Part shown: positions 14,000 to 25,764 of the stretch, piece after piece
Position numbering within the stretch: the stretch's first letter is position 1
Layout of the letters: each line of letters starts with the position of its first letter
DNA from: a virus
Length of the DNA: 25,774 nucleotides
IMG/VR virus record: IMGVR_UViG_3300030107_001363
Span: 18,849 to 44,622 of that record
Strand: one strand, 5' to 3'
Notes under the pieces: generated by a model
Databases searched by the model: none
What the model was told of the DNA's origin: nothing
Seen by the model: the letters and a program-made list of their open reading frames with translations, nothing else
Position numbers and translations under genes: made by a program

Positions 14000-14177
14000 C
14001 GGCAACGGTTTTACACAGAAAGAAATGTTAAATTTAATATTGGAAGGGCAACAAGATATAAACAAACGCATAGATGAGTTACACGAAAAAGTTAATCAAA
14101 AAATATCAAGACAAGAGTTATCAGGTTGGTTAGTTGCAATCTCGGCATTGGTGGTGTTAATCAATAACTTAATGTGA
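13986..14177 (+). CDS. XhlA-like tail-anchored lysis protein
   Basis: This is a 63-residue protein. An N-terminal helix (FTQKEMLNLILEGQQ) and a heptad-like charged segment (INKRIDELHEKVNQKI) are followed by a C-terminal membrane helix (GWLVAISALVVLINNLM). This order, a soluble coiled coil then a terminal anchor, is that of XhlA-type proteins that work with holins. I prefer the ATG at 13986, which overlaps the previous gene by 14 nt and has a purine-rich stretch upstream. An in-frame ATG at 13971 would add five residues. The stop overlaps the next gene's GTG. The lysis role is inferred from layout and neighbours. Confidence 0.6.
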   Translation: MTSYNGNGFTQKEMLNLILEGQQDINKRIDELHEKVNQKISRQELSGWLVAISALVVLINNLM

Positions 14178-15958
14178 AAAAGTTATTAGCTCTTGTAGCC
14201 GCAGTTTTATTGATAGCTACTCCTGTATATGCATATCATACTGAAACACAAACACCTTATGGTATAACTAATACATTAAACAATAATGGTAGCATTACAG
14301 TAAGTTGGCAAGAAAGTGATGGCTTTGAAGATAATCCACCTGAGTATTACATAGTTTATATTGGACTTACTGAAACTGCTGATGATGTATCAGAACAAAC
14401 AGAGTTTGGTTTTACAGAAGCACTATCTTGGCAAACTTTTACATTTACAGCAGAATATTTATATAACGAATTGTCTGTAGATAATCAAAAAATATATGCA
14501 AAAGTAAAAGCATTTCACGATACAAATGGTACAACTAGCGACTTTACTTCAGTAGAAAGTGTATTATATAATTATGATTATGTTCCTAATAACACGCCAC
14601 CTAGTACGACAACAACTAGCACAACCCTCCCCAAAGCAGAAGATGTCGTTGAAGATAATATTACAACGTATTTGGCGTGGGATGAATACGGCTGTGAACA
14701 CCCAAGTAACCCTTTATCGTATAAACAATATTTGGAAGCGATAGAAAGTGGAGATTGGTTTGGTTTTCAAAATGGTGATTGCTCTGACATACCTGATGTC
14801 ATTACTATTATTGTCGAAGAAGAAGAGAATATAGATGAGTTGGACGAAGAAATATTACGAGATGACGACCTCGGAGAAGAAACAATTCAAGAAGAAAATG
14901 AGGAGGTTGAACTCACAGATGAAAATACTAGACCAAGAAATGAAGAAGTTAAACTCACAGAAGAAGAAATAGCTGCTATTGAAGCAGAGATTGCTGCTGA
15001 AGAAGAGCGTTTAATTCAAGAACAGATAGATGCTGAGGAAGAATTACTTATATTAGAAGAGCTTGAGAATAGCACTATTGACCTTGAGAAATTATCTGAA
15101 GAAGAACTAGAAGAGTTTGTAGATGTCATACAAGAAATAGAAGACACTCTTGAAATCATAGAAATAGTAGAGGAAATAATTGAACTAGATATACCTGATG
15201 ATATAATCATAGTCATAGAAGAGGAGGTAATAGAAGATGAGCCTATTGTTGTGGTGGAAGATACAGAAGTGGCTGAGGAAATTTTGGTTGAGCCAATACA
15301 GGAAGATGTTAAGAAAGAACCTATAGAACTAACCGAAGAAGAGGTAGTCGAAGAAGTAGCTGAAATTGTAGAAGTTATAGATATACCTATAGTAGAAGAA
15401 GATGCTACTGAAGAAGAGATAGCCGAAGTCATAGAGGAATATGTAGAGGAACTAGAGACAGAAGAAGTCATAGAAGTTCTTGAAGAAGTAAATGACGTAG
15501 GTGTACAGCAACTAGAAACTGTATCAGAAGAGGTTCAAGAAGTTATACAAGCAGTAGTAGAAGAGGCTATAGAAAATGTTGAAGAGCTTACAGAGGAACA
15601 GGTTGAGGTTGTTGCTGAGGTACTACAAGTTGAAACTAAAGATGTTGCTATCGTTGCAGAAGCAATTAAATCAGATGAAGTAGTAGCTGAAGCAGTAGAA
15701 GAATACGTAGAACGTGCAGTAAAAAATACAGATGTAGAAAACTATACACTTGCTGACGTAGTAACAGAGGTACAGTTTGAAACATTTATTGAAAATCCTA
15801 TAGAAGTTTTGGTGGATATAGATATACAAGAAATAAACCTTACGAGTATTGGTAATGATATGACCCAAGACCAAAAAGAAAAAGCACAAGAAGTTGTAGT
15901 GCCTGTTATTCTGACTAGAATAGCTAGTATGGCAGCTTTTGTATTTAGGAGAAGTTAA
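14174..15958 (+). CDS. Secreted Fn3-like protein with long Glu-rich stalk
   Basis: This is a 594-residue protein with a GTG start overlapping the preceding TGA (GTGA). Residues 1-20 form a clear signal peptide (KKLLALVAAVLLIATPVYA, cleavage after VYA). Residues ~22-135 look like a fibronectin-III or Ig-like beta domain (ITVSWQESDG, YYIVYIGL, KIYAKVKAFHD). Residues ~139-154 form a Thr/Pro linker (STTTTSTTLP). Residues ~165-205 are a small Trp/Cys segment with two cysteines (174 and 203) that may form a disulfide. Residues ~214-555 are extremely rich in Glu, Val and Ile. The C-terminus ends in a moderately hydrophobic stretch and RRS. It is probably exported and may act at the envelope or on the virion surface; the exact role is unknown. 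Confidence 0.8.
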   Translation: MKKLLALVAAVLLIATPVYAYHTETQTPYGITNTLNNNGSITVSWQESDGFEDNPPEYYIVYIGLTETADDVSEQTEFGFTEALSWQTFTFTAEYLYNELSVDNQKIYAKVKAFHDTNGTTSDFTSVESVLYNYDYVPNNTPPSTTTTSTTLPKAEDVVEDNITTYLAWDEYGCEHPSNPLSYKQYLEAIESGDWFGFQNGDCSDIPDVITIIVEEEENIDELDEEILRDDDLGEETIQEENEEVELTDENTRPRNEEVKLTEEEIAAIEAEIAAEEERLIQEQIDAEEELLILEELENSTIDLEKLSEEELEEFVDVIQEIEDTLEIIEIVEEIIELDIPDDIIIVIEEEVIEDEPIVVVEDTEVAEEILVEPIQEDVKKEPIELTEEEVVEEVAEIVEVIDIPIVEEDATEEEIAEVIEEYVEELETEEVIEVLEEVNDVGVQQLETVSEEVQEVIQAVVEEAIENVEELTEEQVEVVAEVLQVETKDVAIVAEAIKSDEVVAEAVEEYVERAVKNTDVENYTLADVVTEVQFETFIENPIEVLVDIDIQEINLTSIGNDMTQDQKEKAQEVVVPVILTRIASMAAFVFRRS

Positions 15959-17175: not shown

Positions 17176-17310
17176 ATGCCACACGGTAAAGGTAAAAATT
17201 CTTTAGTTGCTAACATACATAGGCGTAAAGTGCAAGGCAAAAGCCGTAGCAAAAAGAATACCACTATAAGCAAGAAGGCTTACAATCAAATGAAACGTGG
17301 TTGGAAGTAA
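17176..17310 (+). CDS. Small basic protein, 44 residues
   Basis: An ATG at 17176 directly follows the holin stop, and the frame ends at TAA 17308-17310, which overlaps the next ATG. About a third of residues are Lys or Arg (RRKVQGKSRSKKN, MKRGWK), and the protein has no membrane segment. Similar tiny basic proteins occur near the ends of structural regions in marine phages. Nucleic-acid or virion DNA binding is a guess. It is tightly coupled on both sides, which supports translation. Confidence 0.65.
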   Translation: MPHGKGKNSLVANIHRRKVQGKSRSKKNTTISKKAYNQMKRGWK

Positions 17311-17564
17311 TGACAGTAACTTACAGAGGTGAAAAGTTTTCAGGTTACAACAAACCTAAAGCTACACCTTCGCACAAATCTAAATCACATGCTGTATTAG
17401 CTAAGTCAGGTAATCAGGTTAAGTTGATTAGATTTGGGCAGAAAGGCGTTAAGGGTAGTCCTAAAGGTACAAAAAGAAACAAAGCTTTTAGGGCTAGACA
17501 CGCTGCGAATATCAAGAAAGGTAAGATGTCGGCTGCATATTGGGCAGCTAAGACTAAGTGGTAG
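17310..17564 (+). CDS. Conserved small basic protein of marine phages
   Basis: This is an 84-residue protein with a TAATG start at 17310; a TTG at 17301 would add three residues but is less likely. It contains GYNKPKATPSHKSKSHAVL, KLIRFGQKGVKGSP, KAFRARHAANIKKGKMSAAYW. I recognise this arrangement, especially the RFGQ.GV and RHA.NI..GKMSAAYWA segments, from small proteins in cyanophages, pelagiphages and roseophages. Their role is unknown to me. The strong positive charge suggests nucleic-acid contact. The stop overlaps a zinc-ribbon ORF by 7 nt. Confidence 0.78.
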   Translation: MTVTYRGEKFSGYNKPKATPSHKSKSHAVLAKSGNQVKLIRFGQKGVKGSPKGTKRNKAFRARHAANIKKGKMSAAYWAAKTKW

Positions 17565-17710
17565 AACGTCTAAATTGTAAGACGTGTGGAAAACTATTAA
17601 AAATACAAAGACGAATTAAAAAGTGTGTTAATCTAGGTTGTATAGATTACAATAAAATAAAAAGGAGACAACGTGCCAATAACAAAAAAAGGTATGAAGA
17701 AAGGTTATAA
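17558..17710 (+). CDS. Tiny zinc-ribbon protein (paralogue of 18809-18949)
   Basis: A 50-residue ORF with a GTG start overlaps the previous stop by 7 nt; an in-frame TAA lies directly before the GTG, fixing the start. Four cysteines are spaced C-x2-C-x12-C-x4-C (residues 7, 10, 23, 28), followed by CIDYNK and a strongly basic tail. The same spacing and a CINYNK ending occur in the minus-strand ORF at 18809-18949, so both are almost certainly real and related. Zinc binding is inferred from the cysteines; nucleic-acid binding is a guess from the basic residues. Confidence 0.72.
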   Translation: MVERLNCKTCGKLLKIQRRIKKCVNLGCIDYNKIKRRQRANNKKRYEERL

Positions 17711-17747
17711 AGGTGGGAAACGTGGTGGAAAAAAAAGAAGATACTAA
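17673..17747 (+). CDS. 24-residue highly basic peptide
   Basis: A GTG at 17673 follows AAAAGGAGA (17660-17668), one of the best ribosome sites in the window, with a 4-nt gap. The 24 codons end at TAA 17745-17747 and encode a peptide with 12 Lys/Arg and 6 Gly (KKGYKGGKRGGKKRRY). It overlaps the end of the zinc-ribbon ORF in another frame. The strong ribosome site argues for translation. The composition suggests binding to nucleic acid or to an acidic partner. Confidence 0.55.
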   Translation: MPITKKGMKKGYKGGKRGGKKRRY

Positions 17748-17922
17748 TATATTTAAAAGCCCATCATCATTAAAACGATGGGCTTTAGATTTATCAGATA
17801 GTTGTGGTAGTGTAATAGCTAACAAACCTTATAATATGGAACAAGTTCAAAAACTTATTGATAAGTTTGTTAACGATTACAACGTTAACTTAAAACCTAC
17901 CACAAAGATTACGGAGCTTTAG
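17722..17922 (+). CDS. Small protein at the convergence point
   Basis: A 66-residue ORF with a GTG start at 17722 (GTGs at 17713 and 17725 are alternatives) behind GGTGGG. The sequence looks protein-like, with helical segments (SLKRWALDLSD, MEQVQKLIDKFVNDYN). It overlaps the 24-residue ORF at its start and the convergent minus-strand gene by 14 nt at its end. A perfect terminator-like hairpin (17756-17786) lies inside its coding sequence, so it may be poorly transcribed or not a gene. No family recognised. Confidence 0.48.
   Translation: MVEKKEDTNIFKSPSSLKRWALDLSDSCGSVIANKPYNMEQVQKLIDKFVNDYNVNLKPTTKITEL
17756..17786. terminator. Bidirectional terminator-like hairpin
   Basis: AAAGCCCATC (17756-17765) pairs perfectly with GATGGGCTTT (17777-17786) across an 11-nt loop. 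A/T-rich sequence flanks both sides, so it could stop transcription from either direction. It begins 9 bp after the stop of the 24-residue ORF and lies 122 bp past the stop of the minus-strand gene ending at 17909. Confidence 0.68.
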
Positions 17923-18787
17923 CTTCTTTAAGTTTATCAATCCATTGACTAGCAATTTTCTTAGTCATCTGTCCTGTATTAACAAGAGCTTTAGCTTCTT
18001 GTGCTACTAACTCTGCAGCACCACCTTTATCTATACACTCATTGATAAGTGTGTCCATAAAGTTAGCTTGTGGTTCGCTCATTGGGTCGTTCTCCCATGC
18101 ACCACTTGGTATGTCTGCCATTTCATCTCCTTCTTTTAATGTAAAGACACTTCCGACTTTTTCTTCTACGGTTTTATCTTCCCATGGTTTCATCTTGCTT
18201 CCTTCTTCTTTGTATTTCATTACAAACTTTTCAGCTTCATCTAAGAATTTACCTTGTGTACCTGTGTCCCATGACTCTATGTCCTTGGTTGCACCGCCAA
18301 TAGTTACTTTGTTATATGCAAATTCATATGTTGTTTTAGCAAACTCTTTGTTTTCATTACACATATTAAACACTAAGTTCTTCATGTTTGTTTGCACTCT
18401 AAGTTCTTTTACAGGTTTAGAAGGGGCAGTCTTCAATGGTGGTTTTTTTTTAGTGTCTTGTGTCTTACTCATTTCCTGTTGGGAAGGTCTCTTTTTATTA
18501 CTACCTTGATACTTCCAATTAGCTAACGCTCTACCAATAGCAGAGGTTTCGCAGTTCTCTACCCATGCGTCTTTGTTAGCAAAGCCACCTTGACCTTGTG
18601 TCTCTTGTGCTATACCTGTAGCAACAAGATTGCCTTCATCATTTTGTATGTGTGCTTTAATGGTTACACAACTACCATCATCTGTTATATGTACTACATC
18701 TGTTGTAATACAACCATTTGGATTATCTTTCCAAAAAGCTTTTAATCTATCTTCGACTAATTCATAGTCATCTAAATTGAATTTCAT
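17909..18787 (-). CDS. Putative ssDNA-binding or annealing recombination protein
   Basis: This is a 292-residue protein with AAGGAAGGG just upstream of the ATG at 18787. The N-terminal ~95 residues carry a two-strand core and the motif WVENCETSAIGRALANWKY (75-93). I know this ENCETSAIGRALA motif from phage proteins annotated as ssDNA-binding, Erf- or Rad52-like. A Lys/Pro-rich linker (~95-130) follows. The C-terminal ~50 residues (SEPQANFMDTLI, then MTKKIASQWIDKL) match a short helical motif found at the ends of many phage DNA-metabolism proteins. Neighbours are a metallophosphoesterase and a zinc ribbon, fitting a recombination or replication group. It is the last gene of the minus run; its stop overlaps the convergent ORF. 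Confidence 0.55.
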   Translation of the reverse strand: MKFNLDDYELVEDRLKAFWKDNPNGCITTDVVHITDDGSCVTIKAHIQNDEGNLVATGIAQETQGQGGFANKDAWVENCETSAIGRALANWKYQGSNKKRPSQQEMSKTQDTKKKPPLKTAPSKPVKELRVQTNMKNLVFNMCNENKEFAKTTYEFAYNKVTIGGATKDIESWDTGTQGKFLDEAEKFVMKYKEEGSKMKPWEDKTVEEKVGSVFTLKEGDEMADIPSGAWENDPMSEPQANFMDTLINECIDKGGAAELVAQEAKALVNTGQMTKKIASQWIDKLKEAKAP

Positions 18788-18808
18788 AGTTCCCTTCCTT
18801 ATTAAAGT

Positions 18809-18949
18809 TTAACTTATCTTTACACGTTTCATAGTAACGTAGTTAACTTTGTTATAGTTTATGCACATCATGTTCTTACAAATTAGATGACCATGCAGAG
18901 TGGTTTTAGTCCACCCGCAACTCGCACATATTGTATCTGATGTACACAT
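18809..18949 (-). CDS. Tiny zinc-ribbon protein (paralogue of 17558-17710)
   Basis: A 46-residue ORF on the minus strand, ATG at 18949-18947 and TAA at 18811-18809. Cysteines at 8, 11, 24 and 29 give C-x2-C-x12-C-x4-C, followed by CINYNK, identical in spacing to the plus-strand ORF at 17558-17710. A conserved promoter box ends 9 nt before the ATG. It fills a gap that would otherwise be empty between the metallophosphoesterase and recombination-type genes, ending 21 bp before the latter. Zinc binding is inferred; the partner or target is unknown. Confidence 0.72.
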   Translation of the reverse strand: MCTSDTICASCGWTKTTLHGHLICKNMMCINYNKVNYVTMKRVKIS

Positions 18950-18955
18950 GTCTCT

Positions 18956-18969
18956 TTCATGATAGCAGG
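18956..18969 (-). repeat. 14-bp promoter repeat, copy 1
   Basis: On the minus strand this reads CCTGCTATCATGAA. The same 14 bases occur at 20250-20263, in both cases immediately upstream of a minus-strand start codon. The core TGCTATCAT matches the extended -10 form. Confidence 0.8.
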
Positions 18970-18986
18970 TTATTCCAAGTTGACAA
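18959..18986 (-). promoter_or_regulatory. Promoter for the zinc ribbon and recombination gene
   Basis: On the minus strand, TTGTCA (18986-18981; five of six matches to TTGACA) is separated by 16 bp from TATCAT (18964-18959), which is preceded by TG one base upstream. The predicted start is near 18952, about 3 nt before the zinc-ribbon ATG at 18949. The promoter overlaps the 3' end of the metallophosphoesterase gene. Confidence 0.62.
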
Positions 18987-20034
18987 GGTATTCAGCAGTA
19001 ACACCTTTGTCAGGTTTAACAAATAGACAAAACTGTGAAGGTCTACCCATAGATGCTAGCTGTTCTTGTGCAAATGTATTGTAGCTTTCGGTACTACCAT
19101 TACACCAAAATCTAATATCATTAATGTATTGTGTGTTGGGTGTGTGAAAGTGTCCTGCTACTGCGTAATCAAAGTCTTCCATAAGTCCTTGACTTGCTAA
19201 TGTTTTCCAACCCTGTATCTTTTTACCAAATCCATACCATGGAAACCCTGCGAATCCACGTACTTGGTCACCATGAAACATAAAAAACCTAGACTTCTTA
19301 CCCAAATCAGCTACTGTATACCACGCTTTCTCACCTTTTTTGTACGCTAAATGAAACTTTAACCTCGGCTCATTAACAAATATTTGTTTAAGTATGTTAC
19401 CTAACATAGCATCTGCATTTGTTTCAGGGTGCATGTCTTTACGACTTCTACCACCTAATGCACCATGATTACCTATAACCCAATGACACTCTACTTCATC
19501 AAAGTGTTGTAACAATCTATTAAAAAAACCATGCAAGATACGTGGTCCATCAACTGTAACCTGTGCGTATAAAGAACTATCTATTAAGTGTGCTTGTCCG
19601 GGAAATATTAATTCACCTTCTACTATGTCGCCTAATGCTAAGACAACACACTTCTTAACCGTATGACTAGCACGTTGTATGTCTGCTATATCGCATATCT
19701 TATCTGCATATCTAAGCACACGTTCCTCTGCAACGGCAGTAGAATATGTTGGTGTAACCTTTGCTAGTTGTATATCACTTAGTAAAGGAACACAAATCTC
19801 TTCATGTTTAGTTTTCTTTTTACTCTTGGTGGGAGGTTTCACAGGGCGTAAATCTAATTCTGCTATATTGGTTTGTATAGCTTCGTTCATAGCATCAATC
19901 AAATCTAGTTTCTTGTCTTTCAACCTATCTATTTGCTTACGTTGTTTCTCAATTATCTTTTTAAGTTCATCAACTTTTTCACTTGTCGCCTCTGCGATTA
20001 AATCTACTAACTCGTCTTTACTTTTTTTGACCAT
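18970..20034 (-). CDS. Metallophosphoesterase with N-terminal coiled coil
   Basis: This is a 354-residue protein. Residues ~5-60 form a charged coiled coil, followed by a Lys-rich linker. The calcineurin-like phosphoesterase core follows, with its metal motifs in order: SDIQ (86-89), GDIVEGE (135-141), GNH (188-190), HGD (254-256) and GHFH (294-297). Gln89 stands where the classical DxH has His, as in some phage members. The family includes nucleases such as SbcD/Mre11 and phosphatases; beside a recombination-type gene, a nuclease or DNA end-processing role is likely but unproven. The start overlaps the upstream 79-residue gene by 28 nt and has no clear ribosome site, so translation is probably coupled. 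Confidence 0.85.
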   Translation of the reverse strand: MVKKSKDELVDLIAEATSEKVDELKKIIEKQRKQIDRLKDKKLDLIDAMNEAIQTNIAELDLRPVKPPTKSKKKTKHEEICVPLLSDIQLAKVTPTYSTAVAEERVLRYADKICDIADIQRASHTVKKCVVLALGDIVEGELIFPGQAHLIDSSLYAQVTVDGPRILHGFFNRLLQHFDEVECHWVIGNHGALGGRSRKDMHPETNADAMLGNILKQIFVNEPRLKFHLAYKKGEKAWYTVADLGKKSRFFMFHGDQVRGFAGFPWYGFGKKIQGWKTLASQGLMEDFDYAVAGHFHTPNTQYINDIRFWCNGSTESYNTFAQEQLASMGRPSQFCLFVKPDKGVTAEYLVNLE

Positions 20035-20353: not shown

Positions 20354-20394
20354 AAAAAAAAAGGTGCAGTATCGTTTGCACGATACCACACCTT
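20354..20394 (-). terminator. Strong terminator after the VWA gene
   Basis: Nested inverted repeat: AAGGTG (20361-20366) with CACCTT (20389-20394), and GTATCGT (20369-20375) with ACGATAC (20380-20386), separated by a 2x2 internal loop and a 4-nt apical loop. On the minus strand it is followed by nine T (20362-20354). It lies 44 bp beyond the VWA stop, closing the minus-strand operon. Confidence 0.85.
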
Positions 20395-20437
20395 CTTATG
20401 TAGCTAGACTAAGCGAGACAAGTCTAGCCACTTAGAC

Positions 20438-22360
20438 TTATCTATTGCGTATAGTCTTAGCAAATTCTTTCGCCTCATGTATGTCTTGTAAGATAACTAT
20501 GTCATGCTTACGACACAATTCCTCACAATAGTCTCTTAGTTCATCACTATACACGTAGGAATTTTTCCCATTACTGCTGTAAGCTACCACTTCCATGTCG
20601 CTTACAAGCATACGTGGTTTTGGTTGTGATGCTAACCATAGTATTGCAGGTACATCTACAAAGTTTTCACCATATCCACGAGAGCGTATGAACGTATCAT
20701 CATAGTTCTCAATGGTGCGTTGGTTTTTAGCAAACACTTCAATAACACCTTCAGGTAAGTTATTGTTTCTAGCGTAAGTTTCGCCAACACCTGCATATCC
20801 TACTATTGATGAAGCAGGTAACAATGATATGACTTCCTCAATGTCTTGTGCATTGAAGTGCATACTACCACTACAATCTATGGCTACTGTACCACCTTTG
20901 AGACTTTGGCGTTTTCTAGCAAACACATGCTTGTCAGTAACCCACCTGTTAATGTACTTAGGTACTGCACCTACATCACTAGGTCTGTTTCTACGCACAC
21001 GTAAAGCACCTGCTAAGTCTTTGGTAAGAGTACCATTTAGAAATGTAGCATTTGCCCACCTGTGCCTACCTGCACTAACCTGTATATCGGTGTCTTTTCT
21101 AGTAAGTTCCTCAACTGCATTATCAATTTGTGTCATGATGTTGTCAGCTTTGTAATGCTTGGGTACAAATTCTTCACCTTCCATGTTCTCAATGGTTTTA
21201 GGCAGAAGTTTTCCATACTCATCAAAGCTACCTTCACACAAGGACTGATACAACGCAGCAAGTTGCTTTACATGCTTGTTGTATTTAGCTAACCCTCTAG
21301 GTACAACTGTGTTGTAAGGTATAACTCTCCATTGATACCTATGAACAACATCAATTACTTCTCGTATATTGATTAACCTTCTAAGTATCTCTGCATATTC
21401 CAATCCACCCATACCTGTGTGTAAAAATTCTAAAACTTCTACACAATGTAATGGTTGTCTTAGTACGCCAATGGAATACTTTACATCTGTGTGATTCATT
21501 ACTTTCCACAATATCTCAACTTCAGTTGGTGTCCATCTTGAAGTGAGAGGTTTTTCTAAATACTTCCTCTTGACACTCAAGTATCCGTTAATGTCATGGT
21601 CAGTAGTTTGCTTATCACTATCGTCATAGTCTTGTGCATTTCGCAAACAATCAATCAACGCATCTAAGTATTCAATAAAGTTATTACTATCCCTGTACAT
21701 AGTAAGAGACAATATTTGTCCTACTTGTTGTACAGGTGTATTCTCATACTGTAACCAAGCATGTACTGATTGCATGATAATGTCATAGCAAATGTATTCT
21801 TTTGCATTTACTTTACGTGGAACATTACCACGACTATTGTAATTCCAAGTCCAAGTGCCTTGTTCCTTACGCTCTTGCATGAGCTTATCATGTTCTTTCC
21901 TAGCTTCTTTGTTAGCTAGATTGTACTCAGCACGATACCATCTGTGCATAGCGTAAGCACGTTCCAAGTATTCTTTCTGTATCATCGATGTTCCTTGAAA
22001 CTTAGGCAAAGGAAACATTTCTTTGTACATTACATGAGTACGAATTGTCCTAGCATGATTAACTCTAGGTTTATCAGCATTTACCTTTGGTACGGAATAA
22101 TGAGAAATCTTTCTACTATTTTCCTCATCACGTTTCTGTACTTTGTTAATCAATTTGTTGTAAGGCTCAAAGAACTCTATGAGTTCTGTTATGCTAATGA
22201 GATTGCAATCACAATGTTCATCATCTATCGTAACTGCAGTAGCTTTCTTACGATTGATACTAGGTTTGTTCTGACCTAGAGTTACTTGATACTCTTGTTT
22301 GTCAAGTATCTCAGGGTACAACATGCCTTGTACTTTGCGTGATTTACTCATCTTTCGCAT
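20438..22360 (-). CDS. VWA-domain protein, partner of the MoxR-like ATPase
   Basis: This is a 640-residue protein. The first ~480 residues are mostly helical and unlike any family I know. Residues ~487-625 form a von Willebrand A domain: VAIDCSGSM holds the DxSxS metal site (Asp495), VSDMEV holds the later Asp (~588), and the middle Thr position is replaced by a GENF segment. Such proteins bind a MoxR/CobS-type ATPase and pass its force to a target. The start overlaps the ATPase stop by 17 nt; an ATG at 22351 would give an 8-nt overlap, as at other junctions here. Two terminators follow. A CobT role is unlikely because no cobalamin genes are near. Substrate unknown. Confidence 0.82.
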   Translation of the reverse strand: MRKMSKSRKVQGMLYPEILDKQEYQVTLGQNKPSINRKKATAVTIDDEHCDCNLISITELIEFFEPYNKLINKVQKRDEENSRKISHYSVPKVNADKPRVNHARTIRTHVMYKEMFPLPKFQGTSMIQKEYLERAYAMHRWYRAEYNLANKEARKEHDKLMQERKEQGTWTWNYNSRGNVPRKVNAKEYICYDIIMQSVHAWLQYENTPVQQVGQILSLTMYRDSNNFIEYLDALIDCLRNAQDYDDSDKQTTDHDINGYLSVKRKYLEKPLTSRWTPTEVEILWKVMNHTDVKYSIGVLRQPLHCVEVLEFLHTGMGGLEYAEILRRLINIREVIDVVHRYQWRVIPYNTVVPRGLAKYNKHVKQLAALYQSLCEGSFDEYGKLLPKTIENMEGEEFVPKHYKADNIMTQIDNAVEELTRKDTDIQVSAGRHRWANATFLNGTLTKDLAGALRVRRNRPSDVGAVPKYINRWVTDKHVFARKRQSLKGGTVAIDCSGSMHFNAQDIEEVISLLPASSIVGYAGVGETYARNNNLPEGVIEVFAKNQRTIENYDDTFIRSRGYGENFVDVPAILWLASQPKPRMLVSDMEVVAYSSNGKNSYVYSDELRDYCEELCRKHDIVILQDIHEAKEFAKTIRNR

Positions 22361-23048
22361 TTGATTGTTCTAGTGCATCAAGTATGTCTTTGTATCTGTC
22401 TTGAAACACAACTCTTGCACTATCTTCTTCGCTCATGAACTTAGTCAATCTGTTGAACTCTGCCCATGAACGTATGCTTGTACGTCTATCACTATCTGTA
22501 ATGAGAGACATAGCTTCACATACATCACGATACTTCTTAGGTATCTTTTTCAATGCAGAAGGGTGTATCTTATCAATGTTAATCTTGATAGGAAACCTAT
22601 CTGCTAGTGCATCAGGTAGTGTATCAGGTTGTCCGTTCATGGTTGCTACAACATTAAAGTCCTTCTTAGGTTTAACAAAGTCTTGTTCTCTGTTAGGTAA
22701 TGTCATACCTGCGAACTCTTTGTCATCTAAGATACTATACAAAAATGTAAGCACATCACTAGATGCGTGGTCAATCTCATTGACAACAAATCTAGCACCC
22801 TTCAACCATGCATTGATTGCTGTACCATGTAGCCAAGACATACTACCATTGTCATTTGGTATGAAATGTCCTCGCAATTCCATAGCACTTCCGTCCTCAG
22901 TTAGCGTAGTTGATACTACTTCCTGCTTGTCTTGTAAGTTGTAAAGTGTTGCTTGGTATGACTTACCTGTACCCGGTACGCCATAGAGTAACACTCTATC
23001 TGCATTGCCGATAACTTGTTCGGCTAATTCCCAACATGTTTTTTCCAC
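22344..23048 (-). CDS. MoxR/CobS-type AAA+ ATPase
   Basis: This is a compact 234-residue ATPase with a GTG start behind GAGG. Walker A is GVPGTGKS (23-30), the Walker B region is VVNEID (87-92), sensor 1 is ATMN (134-137), the arginine finger is DALADRF (145-151), and a sensor-2-like RSWAEF lies near 192. The Walker B Asp that normally precedes the catalytic Glu is Asn (NE), while the Glu is kept. These features place it with the AAA_5/MoxR/CobS group, which act as chaperone-like motors with VWA proteins. It is coupled to the VWA gene by overlap. A precedent in viruses is the MoxR-VWA pair of Acidianus two-tailed virus; the role here is unknown. Confidence 0.85.
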   Translation of the reverse strand: MEKTCWELAEQVIGNADRVLLYGVPGTGKSYQATLYNLQDKQEVVSTTLTEDGSAMELRGHFIPNDNGSMSWLHGTAINAWLKGARFVVNEIDHASSDVLTFLYSILDDKEFAGMTLPNREQDFVKPKKDFNVVATMNGQPDTLPDALADRFPIKINIDKIHPSALKKIPKKYRDVCEAMSLITDSDRRTSIRSWAEFNRLTKFMSEEDSARVVFQDRYKDILDALEQSNAKDE

Positions 23049-25348: not shown

Positions 25349-25568
25349 CTGTTATCTCCTCTCTAAATGGGGATAGTGCATACATCTTTGGTTTGTGTCC
25401 TGTTAGCTGTTCAAACTGTTCGTGATTGTTAGCCAACATCACTATCTTATCAACGATATCTATCGCTTGTTCTTTGGTTGTCTCAGCAGTAAAGCTAAAC
25501 TCTACTACCAATTCGTTCTCATCTGTTCTGTGTCCGTGTTGAACGAACTCATACACTTCAGCACTCAT
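25341..25568 (-). CDS. Small protein of the minus operon
   Basis: This is a 75-residue protein. I prefer the ATG at 25568, seven bases after AAAGGA, to a GTG at 25571. It reads as a beta-alpha-beta unit (ELVVEFSFTAETT, KEQAIDIVDKIVMLANN, KMYALSPF). No domain is recognised. It overlaps the upstream gene in another frame and is followed by the Cys-rich gene through an 8-nt overlap. Confidence 0.65.
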   Translation of the reverse strand: MSAEVYEFVQHGHRTDENELVVEFSFTAETTKEQAIDIVDKIVMLANNHEQFEQLTGHKPKMYALSPFREEITDV

Positions 25569-25764
25569 CACAATGTCCTTTCGTAGCTTGTGCTATCACT
25601 TTGCCTATGGGTTTAGATACATCAACTTGGTCAATGTTTAGGCTTATCACGTTCTTGTCATGCCTTCTGCACCATACTTGTATTCCTGTTGGTGTAAATC
25701 CTACTTCGTTCTTTTGAAACTCAGCAGGTGATACACTTCTTGTAGTCTGCGACCAATCAAACAT
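25558..25764 (-). CDS. Small putative zinc-finger protein
   Basis: This is a 68-residue protein. The ATG at 25764 has GAGAG seven bases upstream, so it is probably complete although it lies 10 bp from the window edge. Cys32-x2-His35 and Cys65-x2-Cys68 (CRRHD and HCDEC) suit a single zinc site closing the C-terminus. The first ~25 residues are polar. It begins the visible part of an overlapping minus-strand operon whose promoter must lie to the right of the window. Confidence 0.68.
   Translation of the reverse strand: MFDWSQTTRSVSPAEFQKNEVGFTPTGIQVWCRRHDKNVISLNIDQVDVSKPIGKVIAQATKGHCDEC

Follow-up and report, generated by a model that had tools for sequence, protein, structure and literature searches.

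Two short open reading frames, referred to here as zA and zB, are conserved, unannotated genes in many related phages. The explanation that we favour, with reasonable rather than firm confidence, is that they represent two separate families of great age, each consisting of stand-alone C4 zinc ribbons from uncultured marine phages, probably of Actinobacteria, to which roles can be assigned provisionally. The analysed DNA (the window, 25,774 nucleotides) corresponds to bases 18849-44622 of a 44,622-base IMG/VR virus record.

The zA gene (17558-17710, plus strand) encodes a predicted C4 zinc-ribbon microprotein of 50 amino acids which is basic (+13) and reads VVERLNCKTCGKLLKIQRRIKKCVNLGCIDYNKIKRRQRANNKKRYEERL up to the stop codon. 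The cysteines follow the pattern C-x2-C-x12-C-x4-C, then I-x-Y-N-K. Translation starts at a GTG that overlaps the stop codon of the gene before it. The zA cassette, also on the plus strand, comprises a Lys/Arg-rich protein of 44 amino acids (17176-17310, phrog_25774), a basic protein of 87 amino acids (17301-17564, phrog_7595, which also resembles a stretch of the phrog_220 DNA pilot proteins) and a 69-residue protein (17713-17922) that lies between zA and the terminase in most distant genomes. Within the 3′ end of zA, a further GTG frame with its own Shine-Dalgarno sequence (17673-17747, plus strand) encodes the 24-residue, Gly/Lys/Arg-rich peptide VPITKKGMKKGYKGGKRGGKKRRY, which is identical in L001-L005 and starts with ATG in L011. 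A hairpin at 17757-17785, within the 69-residue gene, was rejected as an element; it is confined to close relatives and seems to be a by-product of the coding sequence. Elsewhere in the late arm, a very acidic, Glu/Val-rich repetitive frame with an N-terminal signal-like segment occupies 14174-15958 (plus strand).

The zB gene (18809-18949, minus strand) encodes a predicted C4 zinc-ribbon microprotein of 46 amino acids, MCTSDTICASCGWTKTTLHGHLICKNMMCINYNKVNYVTMKRVKIS up to the stop, in which the same cysteine spacing is again followed by I-x-Y-N-K. Upstream lies the gene of an SbcD-like metallophosphoesterase (18970-20034, minus strand; phrog_284 exonuclease), and downstream that of a phrog_11717 protein (17909-18787, minus strand), which may be ERF-like. 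A sigma70-like sequence, TTGTCA-16-TATCAT with a TG extension, is found at 18959-18986 (minus strand), 9 nt before the zB ATG. It is a consensus match only, scoring 10 of 12, and is kept in L001-L005, with spacer changes in L003; promoter-like matches show no enrichment in this region, with 4 found against 14 expected. A strong stem-loop of 18 pairs with a T run lies upstream of the phosphoesterase operon (20358-20397, minus strand). The adjacent region (20438-23048, minus strand) encodes a MoxR-like AAA ATPase (AAA_5) beside a 640-residue protein containing the motif DCSGS; the two may form a MoxR-VWA pair. In addition, one gene (MFDWSQTTRSVSPAEFQ...) has two similar copies, one close to each end of the record, at 25558-25764 of the window (minus strand) and at L023:69-323 (minus strand); they could be tandem paralogues.

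Both translations, the identical spacing and the placement of one copy in each arm, zA on the plus and zB on the minus strand, were reproduced as the earlier note had described them. Among 290 stop-to-stop frames of 30-120 amino acids in the window, zA and zB alone carry the exact spacing. Dinucleotide-preserving shuffles of the window gave a mean of 0.045 matches, and at least two matches in 2 of 200 shuffles, so that a chance origin of both patterns is unlikely. The matter is settled by conservation in relatives. These were recruited via the phosphoesterase, the phrog_11717 gene and zA itself. The exact spacing and the four cysteines are invariant in all 36 zA sequences (33 distinct proteins) and in all 35 zB sequences (31 distinct proteins). 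Most zA relatives were recruited with patterns that include some of the motif, and this biases the set towards its conservation. A first zB alignment proved too variable to scan with directly; the zB relatives came mostly via a neighbouring gene, and the conservation of the zB cysteines is therefore the cleaner evidence. Pooled pN/pS ratios of 0.36 for zA and 0.33 for zB (Fisher 2e-14 and 5e-21) indicate purifying selection. Of 28 whole records, many recruited through other genes, 23 contain zA, 11 give a strong zB match and 10 have both. That the frames are short and have weak starts in the window would suit chance frames, a reading which purifying selection, invariant cysteines and fixed genomic slots refute and to which we give next to no credence. 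The earlier proposal that these are real genes which usual annotation overlooks is thus borne out.

The two genes are not universal. They are missing from the close relative L006, zA is missing from L007-L009 and zB from L010-L012; neither is therefore essential. The earlier note held that loss of the cysteines in relatives would speak against the genes. Instead, wherever relatives have the gene its four cysteines are retained, and the other relatives lack it; in L006 (5062-5149) only the last zB codons are left (KKIVDSFTFKITA, resembling the zB tail of L007), a deletion relic. The genes are therefore dispensable, not unreal.

The genomic slot of zB is well defined. In all recruited cases it lies directly behind the phosphoesterase, except in L118, where no phosphoesterase match was obtained. 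The phrog_11717 gene usually follows within about 60 bp, the distance being 1.7-2.4 kb in the L017, L021 and L151 lineages. In genomes without zB, the phosphoesterase and phrog_11717 genes abut or the slot is filled by a cysteine-free protein of about 50 amino acids, such as VKAVEFAGVGTIPKLLVE... in L154, L156, L166, L178 and others. A small cysteine-free protein also occupies this place in Streptomyces phage Dagobah, whose phosphoesterase is the nearest to that of the window.

The position of zA differs between lineages. Normally, as in the distant genomes, zA and the 44-, 87- and 69-residue families sit just before the large terminase gene (TerL, phrog_38), at the head of the late operon. 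The window's clade alone has the cassette at the opposite end (tail) of the late arm, where it follows the holin, and TerL lies near the start of the window's record without a zA cassette. This arrangement bears on the idea that zA is a packaging accessory, either taking the place of a small terminase or directing DNA towards the terminase. The order zA, 44-residue, 87-residue and 69-residue protein directly before TerL, the basic charge of zA and its neighbours, and the fact that no small terminase was recognised there all suit such a role. However, zA is distant from TerL in the window's clade and absent from the close relatives L006-L009, which retain neighbouring cassette genes, and we regard this accessory role as unlikely, though not negligible.

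No significant match to either protein was obtained in Pfam, PHROGs, NCBIfam or PDB, and assignment to a known family was rejected. Predicted models show a hairpin between two knuckles in both proteins (pLDDT 66 and 72, low to moderate confidence), and the zA model has in addition a long C-terminal helix, at the same low to moderate confidence. The four invariant cysteines and the two knuckles flanking a predicted β-hairpin agree with the general features of C4 ribbons, and zinc binding is plausible for both. The closest likeness is to the C4 finger of NAD+-dependent DNA ligases (PF03119, DNA_ligase_ZBD), in which C-x2-C...C-x4/5-C is accompanied by Gly, Leu and Asn positions similar to those of zA and zB; the ligase of Rhizobium phage RHph_TM21B has the identical spacing, C-x2-C-x12-C-x4-C. 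Profile comparison with hhalign gave P 91.5 for zA and 95.0 for zB. In contrast to the ligase finger, zA and zB each make up a whole protein, of about 40-60 amino acids, without the ligase (adenylation) domains, and at E ≤ 0.001 PF03119 matched neither the window's record nor the members scanned.

Foldseek searches with the zA model returned nothing. The best structural neighbours of zB, none significant, were Cas12p, the PR1 phage ligase and LigA ribbons, which belong to nucleic-acid enzymes, and NudC. The zinc ribbon of Cas12p (a Cas12/TnpB-type nuclease) is also the best PDB match of zB by sequence (E 0.21, below significance), and the structural comparison, likewise below significance, gave a Foldseek probability of 0.75 (E 1.4) and a VIA Z of 4.3 with 2.2 Å over 40 residues. 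However, zB has no nuclease domain, and the likeness probably reflects the shared ribbon fold only. The zinc motif of ribosomal protein S14 type Z starts like zA with C-x2-C-x12-C (weak, E 0.12), but this match stops at the third cysteine and none of the searches supported zA as a ribosomal protein.

The identical spacing and the shared downstream motif had been taken as strong evidence for paralogy. A duplication within the lineage, with the paralogues splitting control between the arms, would also agree with the 33% identity of the two window proteins across the 30-residue core and with a zA-zB profile score (P 90-94; 93.8 beside the ligase-finger control) above all 300 permutations in which the cysteines were fixed. 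Against duplication, 2 of 300 permutations attain the zA-zB score once the conserved Gly is fixed together with the cysteines. Moreover, the zinc fingers of ten NAD+-dependent ligases, one from a bacterium and nine from phages, match both families about as well as they match each other, whereas two other zinc-containing families from the same phages reached P of about 1-2%. The similarity thus points to one broad ribbon type rather than specifically to duplication. The I-x-Y-N-K tail is a feature of zA (Y in 26 of 26, N in 25 and K in 20) which recurs in a single one of 29 zB proteins, and the shared motif loses its weight as evidence of paralogy. In the tree, which rests on only 30 columns, zA and zB are reciprocally monophyletic with 100/100 support. 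The monophyly and the ligase control largely refute a recent duplication, and we consider duplication within the lineage improbable. An ancient common origin is possible. We thus retain the reading of two old, distinct families within one broad ribbon type, as far as the sequences allow.

The earlier note further suggested that duplication was followed by separate control. Duplication finds no support; separate control stands, in another form. In 20 of 24 distinct upstream regions of zA (21 if one at 8 nt is counted), a TANNNT hexamer ends 6-7 nt before the ATG, and none of the 24 has a Shine-Dalgarno sequence; these regions are interrelated and do not represent 24 independent events. Among 558 distinct frames of at least 100 amino acids from the same loci, the corresponding values are 4.1% for a -10 element at 6-7 nt and 38% for a Shine-Dalgarno sequence. 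The hexamers vary (TATAAT, perfect in many, TATGAT, TAACAT, TAAAAT and TAATAT) and the spacing is constant. Mycobacterial ribosomes initiate efficiently on leaderless ATG or GTG (PMC4633059), and the arrangement suggests that zA may be made from leaderless mRNA, as in Actinobacteria. Like the leaderless small proteins of mycobacteria (PMC4633059), zA is small, with an ATG apparently at the start of the transcript and no Shine-Dalgarno sequence. It differs from them as a gene of a phage late operon whose transcription start is deduced from sequence. In contrast, most zB starts (17 of 26) use a Shine-Dalgarno sequence that is supplied by the final codons of the phosphoesterase gene. The window's own clade is an exception to both patterns: its zA, with the overlapping GTG, has neither a promoter of its own nor a -10 element, and its zB is preceded by the TTGTCA-16-TATCAT match.

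These starts invite the interpretation of zA as a regulator of host take-over or of late transcription, made first and from a leaderless mRNA. The promoter-proximal, leaderless-like start in most lineages would fit, as would the terminator-resembling hairpins just upstream of zA in several genomes (L036, L113 and L072). However, zA shows no homology to regulators, and in many genomes another gene (cl2) precedes it, so that zA does not always come first in its arm. This interpretation is possible, although doubtful. A related version, in which a leaderless-expressed, promoter-proximal zinc ribbon would switch on or tune late transcription or packaging across a broad group of uncultured marine actinophages, appears slightly less probable still.

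The host is likely a marine actinobacterium because most relatives of the capsid protein and the phosphoesterase are actinophages and the G+C content of the window is close to that of Ca. Actinomarinales phages. The capsid protein is closest to those of Mycobacterium, Propionibacterium and Bifidobacterium phages and the phosphoesterase to that of Dagobah (51% over the matched part); the window has a G+C content of 36%, and two Ca. Actinomarinales phage sequences have 33.6% and 36.5% (PMC7771536). The leaderless-like start of zA may be an extra hint in the same direction. Relatives carrying zA or zB were not found by tblastn in a collection of 50,697 phage records, and no zA match was confirmed in bacterial genomes.

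Most likely, zA would be a basic zinc ribbon that binds nucleic acid and heads the late unit, and zB would serve the recombination operon as an accessory. The four cysteines of each protein would bind one zinc ion and form a knuckle, hairpin and knuckle similar to the ligase finger. The strongly basic zA (median net charge +9), with its predicted C-terminal helix, would bind nucleic acid; made as the late unit opens, it would act early in the late programme, in late transcription or DNA packaging. The near-neutral zB (median +2) may be a small accessory protein of the SbcD-like/phrog_11717 recombination and repair operon that binds DNA or a partner.

In kind, zA and zB are ordinary, with the leaderless-like start as a twist. 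They add two unannotated families, for which Pfam, PHROGs and NCBIfam gave no significant match, to a widespread group of marine phages, and illustrate that tiny genes can be validated through slot conservation together with codon bias. Furthermore, the leaderless-like start of zA provides a testable sign of how such phages may open their late programme.
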